Shown here piece after piece: positions 51,600 to 54,911 of a DNA stretch of 64,000 nucleotides. The stretch comes from Phycisphaerales bacterium (GTDB taxonomy: Bacteria > Planctomycetota > Phycisphaerae > Phycisphaerales > UBA5793): the NCBI GenBank assembly GCA_020852515.1, contig JADZAS010000023.1:62001-126000 (forward strand), written 5' to 3'. Numbering within the stretch: the first letter of the stretch is position 1; each line of letters opens with the position of its first letter. The notes under the pieces are model-generated. The model searched no databases, was not told the origin of the DNA, and was given only the letters and a program-made list of their open reading frames with translations. The translations under genes and the position numbers were made by a program.

Positions 51600-54362
51600 A
51601 TGACAACGCTGCTCATCGCCGTCGCGGCCGGGCTTGGCTTCATCATCGCCTACCACACCTACGGGCGCTGGCTGGGCCGGCGCATCTTCGCTCTGAGCAC
51701 AAAGGCCGTGTGCCCCTCGCACCGCCTGCGCGATGACAGCGACTACGTACCGACCAAAAAGGCCGTCATCTTCGGGCATCACTTCACGTCAATCGCCGGC
51801 ACCGGGCCGATCGTCGGGCCGGCGATCGCGGTGATGTGGGGCTGGCTGCCGGCGCTGATCTGGGTCGTGCTCGGCTCGGTGTTCATCGGGGCGGTGCATG
51901 ACCTGGGCGCACTGGTCGTGTCCCTGCGCCACAACGGGCAGACGATCGGCGACGTCGCCGGCCGAGTGCTCAATCGGCGCGTGCGCGTGCTCTTCCTGCT
52001 GATTCTCTTCATGGGCCTGACGATCGTGCTGGCGATCTTCGGCCTGGTCATCGCCACGGTCTTTCGCCAGTACCCGGCGTCGATCTTTCCGTGCACGGTG
52101 CAGATCCCCATCGCGGTGGCCATCGGCGTCTGGCTGCATCGCAAGGGCGCGAGCCTGCTGCTGCCGTCGATCATCGCCCTGGTGATCATGTACCTCACCG
52201 TCGTGATCGGCGATGAGAACTTCTCGACCGACCTGCCGGTGCTGGCCCACGTCATGCACGGCCTGCACGCGGCCAATGCGTGGATGGCGTCGTGGTCGAA
52301 CATGACGTGGGTCATCGTGCTGCTGATTTACTCATATGTGGCGTCGGTGCTGCCGGTGTGGCTGCTCCTCCAGCCGCGCGACTACATCAACAGCCTGCAA
52401 CTGCTCTCGGCGATGGGGCTGATCGTGCTTGGCCTGGTCGTGGCGGCGTTCATCGGCGGCGCTCCGCCGGTGGAAGGGGCAGCCCGCCAGCCGCTTGAGG
52501 TCGTGGCGCCGATGTGGAATCCGAATCCGATCGGGGCCCTGCCGATTTTTCCTTTTCTGTTCATCACGATTGCCTGCGGCGCGGTCAGCGGCTTCCACTG
52601 CCTGGTGAGCAGCGGCACGAGCAGCAAACAGATCGAAAGCGAACCCGATGCACGTTTTGTCGGCTACGGGTCGATGTTGACGGAGGGGTTTCTTGCGACG
52701 CTGGTCATTATCGCTTGCGTCGCCGGATTAGGTTTGGGATCGACGTTGCGAACCTCATCAGGTCCGAATTATTACCAGGCATTTGTATCTACGATTCGCG
52801 ACTTCGTCGATCCAACCGGCGTACAAAAAACGCTCGAGATCGCAGTTCCAGGGGACTCGCGCGCTGGCTCGACGCCTCTTGGTCTCCGTCTTGCACGACT
52901 AGGGCTGCAAGGAGGGATCAACTGGGGTTGGCACACGCAAGCTCCCAAGGAGGACATGGGACCTGAGACCGGTCTCTATCGGCCGCTTGGTCCAGATTCT
53001 CCGCCAACGGCGATCGTCTTTGGGACAGATGGTGTTGTAGTGCGCGGTGACGTGGAACTCGAATCAGAGATTCAGGCGGCGGTGGTAGGCCGGGCCGCAT
53101 TCAACACGCGCTATCAATCCTGGTCCGCCGCAGGCGGCCTCGCGCGGACCGTCGCCGCGTTCGTAGACGGCTCGGCCAATCTGCTCCGCGCCATCGGCCT
53201 GCCGCTCGGCGTGGCCGTCGCGCTGATGGGCGTGCTCGTCGCCTCATTCGCCGGCACGACACTTGACACCGCCTGCCGCCTGCAGCGCTACGTGGTGCAG
53301 GAACTCGCCGCGACGTTCCTGCCATCTCGCCCCGCAAGCGACTGTCCCAAGTGCGGCTACACACTCTGGCAACACGCGACATCACTGCAGTCGCAAAGCG
53401 ACGCGGCCTTCGCCCCGGAGGGGCGCGAGAATGTAGCCACGGGTGGAGTGAATCCCGAAGGGATGAGCGGAACCCGTGGACAGGATGCGCAGAAACTCCC
53501 AAGCCCCGAAGGGTCGACAGAAACACCCGGCGCGCGAGAAGGACACACGACTCCTTCGCCCCTCCGGGGCGATGATGATCGCGCGCACACTTCCCACGGG
53601 TTCCGCGATGCCCAGAGCAGCATCGCTCCACCCGTGGCTACGCTCGCCGGCCCCGCCGGGGCCGAAGACGCTGCGTTGCTTCGCTCTGCTCAGGCGGAAC
53701 GCAACAAGCCGCCGACCAGCGATATCCAATGCCCCGAGTGCGGCGAGATGATCACTCCCGAACAGATCGAGCACGCCGGACGCTCGATGCCCGGCAGCGC
53801 ATTCAACATCCTCAACCCCATTCACTGGCTCACCAACAAGCACGGCGCGACGATCTTCGCCATCGTCATCGCCACCGTGCTCGCGGCCCTGCCCACAACG
53901 CAGATCACGCCGGGCTTCTGGTCAACCTTGTTCACCGACGGGCCGGGCGGCGCCTGGACATGGATGACCACCAACGGCGGAATTGGCGGCCTGCTCCTCT
54001 GGCCGCTGTTCGGCGCGACGAATCAGCTCCTCGCCGGCTTGTCGTTCATCGTCATCACGATGTACCTCTGGCGGCGGCGCAAGCCGCTGTGGTTCCTCAT
54101 CGTGCCGATGGTGTTCATGCTCATCATGCCGATGTGGGCGATGACCTGGCAGGTGTTCATCGGCAGCGCCGACTCGCCGCGCTGGCTCACGCCCGAGATC
54201 GGCGCGACGAAGTGGCCGCTGGCGCTCATCGGCATCGCTTCGATCATCATCGAGATCTGGATGATCGTCGAAGCGCTGCTCGTGTGGCCGCGCGTGCGCG
54301 GCATTGTCGAGCGCGGCGCCACCGATGCGCCCTGTGCAACCGGCGCACCCGTGACGGCATGA
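51600..54362 (+). CDS. cstA: CstA-type peptide/pyruvate transporter with two large insertions
   Basis: 920-aa carbon-starvation (CstA) family membrane protein, taking up peptides or pyruvate. Family segments include VPTKKAVIFGHHFTSIAGTGPIVGP, HDLGALVVSLRHNG, FAGTTLDTACRLQRYVVQELA (given here in parts) and LLLWPLFGATNQLLAGL. Two segments are unlike the usual family. Residues about 380-505 form a soluble insertion whose DNA is poorer in GC. Residues about 580-715 hold a zinc ribbon split in two (CPKCG ... CPECG) by about 130 low-complexity residues encoded by hairpin repeats. The frame is intact throughout. Confidence 0.9.
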   Translation: MTTLLIAVAAGLGFIIAYHTYGRWLGRRIFALSTKAVCPSHRLRDDSDYVPTKKAVIFGHHFTSIAGTGPIVGPAIAVMWGWLPALIWVVLGSVFIGAVHDLGALVVSLRHNGQTIGDVAGRVLNRRVRVLFLLILFMGLTIVLAIFGLVIATVFRQYPASIFPCTVQIPIAVAIGVWLHRKGASLLLPSIIALVIMYLTVVIGDENFSTDLPVLAHVMHGLHAANAWMASWSNMTWVIVLLIYSYVASVLPVWLLLQPRDYINSLQLLSAMGLIVLGLVVAAFIGGAPPVEGAARQPLEVVAPMWNPNPIGALPIFPFLFITIACGAVSGFHCLVSSGTSSKQIESEPDARFVGYGSMLTEGFLATLVIIACVAGLGLGSTLRTSSGPNYYQAFVSTIRDFVDPTGVQKTLEIAVPGDSRAGSTPLGLRLARLGLQGGINWGWHTQAPKEDMGPETGLYRPLGPDSPPTAIVFGTDGVVVRGDVELESEIQAAVVGRAAFNTRYQSWSAAGGLARTVAAFVDGSANLLRAIGLPLGVAVALMGVLVASFAGTTLDTACRLQRYVVQELAATFLPSRPASDCPKCGYTLWQHATSLQSQSDAAFAPEGRENVATGGVNPEGMSGTRGQDAQKLPSPEGSTETPGAREGHTTPSPLRGDDDRAHTSHGFRDAQSSIAPPVATLAGPAGAEDAALLRSAQAERNKPPTSDIQCPECGEMITPEQIEHAGRSMPGSAFNILNPIHWLTNKHGATIFAIVIATVLAALPTTQITPGFWSTLFTDGPGGAWTWMTTNGGIGGLLLWPLFGATNQLLAGLSFIVITMYLWRRRKPLWFLIVPMVFMLIMPMWAMTWQVFIGSADSPRWLTPEIGATKWPLALIGIASIIIEIWMIVEALLVWPRVRGIVERGATDAPCATGAPVTA
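53405..53668. repeat. Inverted pair of hairpin repeat elements inside cstA
   Basis: Two related structured units lie in opposite orientation. Left unit: GC hairpin (53411-53416/53420-53425), then CCACGGGT (53437-53444) pairing with ACCCGTGG (53472-53479) around an inner hairpin (53452-53456/53460-53464). Right unit, inverted: hairpin 53558-53562/53566-53570, then CCACGGGT (53594-53601) pairing with ACCCGTGG (53630-53637) around an inner hairpin (53605-53611/53620-53626), then hairpin 53648-53654/53658-53664. CCACGGGTGGAG and GCGGAACCCGTGG cores are shared, while the inner hairpins differ. The whole is translated in frame. Confidence 0.8.
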
Positions 54363-54392: not shown

Positions 54393-54483
54393 AAAAACAA
54401 AAAACCGCCGTGCGAAGCTCCGACACCCGCACGGCGGCAAGAAGACCGCGGTGACAAACCGCGATGTCCAAGGATAGACAGTC
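54393..54483 (-). ncRNA. Candidate small RNA
   Basis: A minus-strand transcription unit of about 91 nt. It begins about 7 nt after a -10 box, has a 6-bp hairpin (54447-54452/54458-54463, five-nt loop) and ends with a 10-bp stem (54405-54414/54428-54437, 13-nt loop) followed on the minus strand by TTTTTTGTTTTT (complement of 54393-54404), a textbook intrinsic terminator. No open reading frame of note. It is antisense to no gene. Similar compact units are typical of trans-acting sRNAs, but transcription is unproven. Confidence 0.5.
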
Positions 54484-54489
54484 GGACTG

Positions 54490-54519
54490 ACCATAGCCGC
54501 GACATGAAGCCCAAGTCAA
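54490..54519 (-). promoter_or_regulatory. Promoter of the candidate small RNA
   Basis: On the minus strand TTGACT (54514-54519, 5 of 6) and TATGGT (54490-54495, 4 of 6) are separated by 18 nt. A short dyad CAGTC-G-GACTG (54479-54489) overlaps the expected start of transcription. Confidence 0.5.
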
Positions 54520-54530
54520 TTGAGAAATCA

Positions 54531-54556
54531 GATGTTGAGCGAAATCGCGCAACATC
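54531..54556. promoter_or_regulatory. 26-bp near-perfect dyad, candidate operator
   Basis: Arms GATGTTG (54531-54537) and CAACATC (54550-54556) plus inner GCGA/TCGC pairs give 11 of 12 flanking pairs with a two-base centre. It lies 11 bp upstream of the -35 box of the small-RNA candidate. Symmetry of this length fits a dimeric transcription factor site. Confidence 0.45.
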
Positions 54557-54841
54557 TTACAACACAAGGACTTACAAAATCACCCAACTTGGACGCTCTC
54601 GGGTCAGTGCAATTTCGGGGCCGCCAACTCCAGTATCCTATCGTAATCCAAACAAACGTACCCCGGCACGACCGGCCCGATGGCCGGCCGCCTCGGCAGG
54701 AAACCGGGGCGTGCACCGAATGGTCAGCGCGATGGGCGCCCCTTCGACCGAAGCGTGCCGCGGCCGGACCGCCGGCTGCCGTGCAGCGCGTGAAAAGGGG
54801 CTCAGCGAGTAGTTGAGGGCGATTCCGGAGCATCCGCCAAG

Positions 54842-54870: not shown

Positions 54871-54911
54871 GACCCCCTCATATTGTGTCCTTTTTCACAA
54901 GGGTGGTCCGG

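Follow-up and report, generated by a model that had tools for sequence, protein, structure and literature searches.

Trans-encoded base-pairing small RNAs (sRNAs) possess their own promoter and intrinsic terminator, and expose an invariant seed, in a terminator or apical loop, that pairs with a site in the translation-initiation region of an mRNA. For the whole PVC group, a 2022 survey counted 8 sRNAs (PMC9029176). Within this superphylum, IhtA of Chlamydia, a host that lacks Hfq, represses hctA, encoding the H1-like protein HctA, through 7 base pairs (PMC4355289, PMC3469542); it is loop 1 of this RNA that pairs, over the AUG rather than the Shine-Dalgarno (SD) sequence, and its third stem-loop is the terminator. 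A different type, represented by CsrB and RsmZ, titrates the protein CsrA through GGA motifs exposed in hairpin loops, downstream of promoters driven by GacA/UvrY-like regulators. The hexaloop bound by CsrA with high affinity is ANGGAX (PMC4005645).

The locus described here lies in a 64,000 nt stretch (the window) of the 4.7 Mb genome of a planctomycete of the order Phycisphaerales. A sequence-only reading had proposed that a promoter, hairpins and a terminator are arranged on the minus strand at 54393-54519, between two plus-strand genes, and the same elements were present when the sequence was read again. The flanking genes, both on the plus strand, are cstA (Pfam CstA), ending at 54362, 37 nt from the unit, and nuoJ (Pfam Oxidored_q3), starting at 54885. 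The CstA homologue (51600-54362, 920 aa) has a low-complexity insertion with CxxC pairs (CPKCG...CPECG) that breaks its Pfam match into three stretches. The features of the minus-strand unit are as follows.

54535..54576, minus strand: upstream operator-like element, the locus's own copy of TAAGTnnnTTnnnnnnAAnnnACTTA plus ATTT and AA blocks, placed by its fixed position relative to the -35
54514..54519, minus strand: -35 hexamer TTGACT, from a promoter consensus scan; TTGAC is conserved family-wide
54490..54495, minus strand: -10 hexamer TATGGT, 18-nt spacer, from the consensus scan; this spacing is the commonest in relatives
54399..54483, minus strand: predicted sRNA of about 85 nt, from folding and covariance model R3, with its start placed from the -10
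54466..54479, minus strand: small 5' hairpin GUCUAUCCUUGGAC, from folding, in its own family only
54447..54463, minus strand: hairpin 1, CGCGGU-UUGUC-ACCGCG, from covariation
54405..54437, minus strand: hairpin 2, the intrinsic terminator stem-loop, with G+C-rich stem CCGCCGTGCG/CGCACGGCGG, from covariation
54417..54423, minus strand: putative seed, the terminator loop UCGGAGC, from near-invariance and unpaired probability
54399..54404, minus strand: terminator T tract (T6), from the sequence and its conservation in congeners

The promoter is one of 2 consensus sites found by the scan in 5 kb, against 0.8 expected, and the terminator is overlooked by a terminator scanner because its loop is 13 nt long. 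When folded, the predicted 86-nt RNA reaches -41.1 kcal/mol, compared with -26.7 for shuffled sequences (z -4.8), and model R3 run on the window scores the sRNA at 69.2 bits (E 1e-15).

The gap between cstA and nuoJ holds the unit in four congeners as well. Across the five congeneric genomes, the terminator is 100% identical, loop included, with identity at the background level just beyond the -35 and the T tract. In these congeners, conservation runs from the -35 to the T tract. Close relatives are recorded as Phycisphaerales UBA5793, KLAP200, PLA1, PLA5 and PNC21. A pattern made of the loop and terminator matched 22 genomes in the order Phycisphaerales, against 1 for the reversed pattern, and a covariance model built from family f1 alone recovered members of f3 at E values down to 3e-10. 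With a covariance model of 17 sequences, the RNA was found in at least 166 of 400 Phycisphaerales genomes, nearly always as one copy; the true rate is higher, since G047, negative by the model, harbours the RNA at the syntenic place with UCGGAGC intact. Two weak matches that look false (G453, G665) and one that is too weak (G437) were left out of the counts. The final covariance model placed the RNA in other orders of the class Phycisphaerae too. Outside the class, matches stayed at chance level, with only four marginal R3 matches among several hundred genomes; when read, each proved to be either an ordinary terminator or unrelated sequence. Matches to the hairpin-1 pattern outside the class were similarly rejected as coding or unrelated. 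A search of viral contigs for the loop-terminator pattern gave no match, Rfam 15 contains no family that hits the RNA above its gathering threshold, and no description of it was found in the literature searched. The RNA belongs to a family spanning the class Phycisphaerae that is absent from Rfam 15.

The structure is conserved along with the sequence. In an alignment of 86 related sequences, all 16 modelled pairs covary with changes on both sides and 97.6% of cells are paired, although fitting the alignment to the model tilts this count towards the modelled structure. Covariation scores 0.52, compared with 0.17 for shuffles, and is lost when the partner is slid. Hairpin 1 (6/6 pairs covarying, 96% of cells paired) and hairpin 2 (10/10, 98%) both contribute, and the picture is the same in the set of 17 sequences, where 100% of cells are paired. 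In the small 5' hairpin, a U-A pair is exchanged for C-G in the congener G002.

Of 105 copies, 102 have exactly UCGGAGC as the terminator loop; the remaining three, one in an f11 genome and the others in two distant orders, all keep GGA. Folding leaves the U, C, G, G and A of the loop unpaired, with mean probabilities of 0.91-1.0. Two genomes from distant orders, G508 (L153) and G625 (L155), carry the RNA with AGUGGAUGA in place of UCGGAGC, and offer a natural test of compensating change in a target, for which the matching sequence would be UCAUCCACU. A second conserved stretch, GCCGUGGCRCG, covers the 3' arm of hairpin 1 and the linker; it is common to f2, f5, f6, f11, f24 and f27 (for instance L153, L159 and L163) and has been lost in the window's genus.

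Promoter sequences accompany the RNA. Of 105 loci, 76 have an exact TTGAC with TAnnnT no more than 150 nt upstream, as against 0-3 of 105 in regions shifted by 200-1100 nt; a spacing of 18 nt is the commonest in relatives (60/87), and in the family the median length of the predicted RNA is 92 nt. These sequences mark a predicted sigma-70-type promoter that has stayed with the RNA. Among 87 promoters from genomes across the order, the palindrome TAAGTnnnTTnnnnnnAAnnnACTTA (TAAGT...ACTTA) keeps a constant distance upstream of the -35, and the form TAA[GA]-N17-[CT]TTA was observed 23 times where shuffles led to an expectation of 0.5. With f1 left out of training, an upstream profile gave the locus's own site the top rank among about 3019 positions in every f1 genome examined (6/6). 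The element is kept in f1 though the ancestral divergent neighbour, described below, is absent there, and it therefore belongs to the sRNA. The proposal that the unit constitutes an independent gene has been upheld by its sharp conservation limits, by the covariation of all 16 pairs, by the co-travelling promoter and by its class-wide occurrence as a single copy, and on this comparative evidence it is almost certainly a real sRNA gene.

The sequence GCTCCGACAC, complementary over 10 nt to the window's loop, is present 9-18 times per genome, no more often than a reversed control. In 4/4 congener species, one such site immediately precedes the SD of the same small gene, TTCTGCTCCGACACCTCCATCMAAGGAGAA...ATGGCGAAA, the product of which is extremely lysine-rich, histone-H1-like and 34-66 aa long; it has no match in Pfam or NCBIfam, as is expected from its low complexity. 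More widely, 36 of 80 genomes contained between them 39 matches to the pattern GCTCCGA-N6..36-M[A/P/S/T]KK, anchored at a start, whereas the reversed pattern gave about 5. In 35 genomes (f1, f2, f3, f5 and f6) the match is an H1-like ORF preceded by an SD, with 35-63% lysine and a length of 31-149 aa, a number that excludes the match in G038, which has no SD, and includes G287, a short contig-like stretch read in part. GCUCCGA begins 26-39 nt before the ATG and lies 7-19 nt upstream of the SD, in leaders that otherwise differ between families. The combination of GCUCCGA and an H1-like gene was found in 35 of 70 RNA-bearing genomes and in 0 of 10 genomes in which the RNA was not detected (Fisher P 0.004, with related genomes treated as independent). 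Half of the RNA-bearing genomes gave no match to this pattern, a point against the proposed target, although the pattern would miss H1-like genes with another start; as the search was seeded with the complement of the loop (the anti-seed), H1-like genes that do not have it stay outside the count. No further lysine-rich ORF appeared in the other loci fetched, which suggests that such genes are rare and that chance agreement would account for well under one case.

Pairing between loop and leader extends to as many as 12 contiguous base pairs in the window's genus. Cognate pairs run further than permuted ones (9.2 against 8.6, P 0.001, relatives being treated as independent), and the window's own loop-leader duplex, at -25.1 kcal/mol, ranks within the best 0.13% when set against random stretches of the window. 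Judged by this complementarity, the sRNA very probably pairs with the H1-like mRNA, and since its 7-letter loop matches the ribosome-binding region of that mRNA, it probably controls the amount of the protein.

The comparison yields a gene, its structure, a conserved seed and a conserved complementary site; from these we infer that the RNA is made and binds. It is likely to be a trans-acting, Hfq-independent antisense sRNA, the seed UCGGAGC of which pairs with the H1-like leader and which most likely represses translation. A regulated promoter of the sigma-70 type, with its palindromic upstream element, would drive an sRNA of ~85 nt; the intrinsic terminator would end the transcript and present UCGGAGC in its apical loop; the seed would pair with GCUCCGA, placed 7-19 nt ahead of the SD, in the mRNA for the H1-like, nucleoid-packing protein; and this pairing would block loading of the 30S subunit, such that the H1-like protein is repressed. 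Seven base pairs is short for an sRNA in an Hfq-less bacterium, which counts against the proposal, yet the same number is enough for IhtA.

Folding alone does not tell the sign of the regulation. CUCC within the anti-seed can pair with the SD, with a mean probability of 0.18 that rises to 0.63-0.72 in the window's genus, and a real sRNA might consequently displace an inhibitory CUCC:GGAG hairpin and thereby activate the H1-like mRNA, or might work via mRNA stability. However, when the anti-seed was blocked in folding, mean SD accessibility did not consistently change (0.26 to 0.27, P 0.78), so release of the SD is not supported, and we consider activation or an effect on stability possible but unlikely. 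Repression, the more plausible sign, is suggested with moderate confidence by analogy with IhtA, the repressor of H1-like HctA in Hfq-less Chlamydia.

The resemblance to IhtA and hctA extends to an sRNA from an Hfq-less member of the PVC superphylum, pairing of loop and mRNA over a short, G/C-rich stretch of about 7 nt, and a target encoding a small, basic, H1-like DNA-binding protein. It is a functional likeness, drawn from target and pairing and not from the sequence of the sRNA or homology between HctA and the K-rich protein. The site differs, in that it is the terminator loop which would pair here, upstream of the SD, and repression, proven for IhtA, is predicted for the present RNA. Among trans-encoded antisense sRNAs in general, the family has the usual attributes: its own promoter and terminator, evident from sequence and conservation; a conserved secondary structure; and an exposed, conserved seed with a complement near the ribosome-binding site of an mRNA encoded elsewhere. 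It departs from them in having no Rfam match, an Hfq-less host group and one dominant target across families.

CsrA was detected in 71 of 72 Phycisphaerae genomes, and Hfq above the cut-off in 0 of 72. Most of the 72 have a divergent CsrA paralogue beside the canonical one, while some reduced f3 genomes have only the divergent form. A host with CsrA, often in two forms, and no Hfq would suit an RNA of the CsrB/RsmZ type, the loop GGA of which captures CsrA under a promoter driven by a GacA/UvrY-like regulator; the present RNA also exposes a GGA that divergent loops retain, and its upstream palindrome has TGTAAG-like half-sites similar to those of the Gac box, TGTAAGN6CTTACA. These half-sites are, however, separated by 17 nt, rather than the 6 of the Gac box, and the loop reads UCGGAG, with an invariant U at -2, not ANGGA. 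A single conserved GGA is exposed, the 5' part of the RNA showing no enrichment (0.48 against 0.50 in shuffles), and capture of CsrA would leave the conserved complement in the H1-like leaders unexplained. This sponge function was rejected as very unlikely, neither the motif nor the number of sites fitting.

The sequence-only reading had put forward cstA and nuo mRNAs as possible targets, which was not borne out. With cstA only 37 nt away, and as the convergent neighbour in f1, f2 and f5, the unit could be imagined to act locally, on cstA or nuoJ, either as an antisense RNA or as an insulating terminator against minus-strand transcription. Yet pairing with the cstA and nuoJ leaders is no better than with shuffles, 0.82 and 0.24 of which, respectively, are as good, and an insulator requires neither a promoter nor a conserved loop. 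In most relatives the neighbours are different: a divergent gene of the MutT-type Nudix family lies 57-300 nt upstream of the sRNA in the majority of 31 genomes (loci L148, L151, L158, L163-L166 and 24 others) from five families including another order (f2, f3, f5, f6 and f11). This is its oldest neighbour, the place of which was taken by nuoJ in the window's genus. Because neighbours differ between families, action of the sRNA in trans is favoured, and a purely local role is highly improbable. As for a chance juxtaposition of promoter-like and terminator-like sequences without a gene, such promoter matches do arise randomly, at the rate given above, but conservation, covariation and promoter linkage across more than 100 genomes leave this with practically no credibility, covariation having already refuted it.

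Few regulatory sRNAs are known in the Planctomycetota, and this one comes with a candidate target at the level of sequence. It is conceivable, as a speculation we hold only tentatively, that Hfq-independent sRNA control of H1-like packing proteins is an old principle shared by the PVC bacteria, in which the Phycisphaerae RNA and IhtA would be equivalent, and possibly related, in adjusting the compaction of the nucleoid to the growth state, here through an activator binding TAAGT...ACTTA. If the proposed regulation is true, it would show how antisense control can work from a 7-nt seed in an Hfq-less bacterium, and would extend the link between an sRNA and histone-like chromatin to bacteria other than Chlamydia, making the reason why H1-like proteins are translationally regulated in some bacteria directly testable in free-living organisms.
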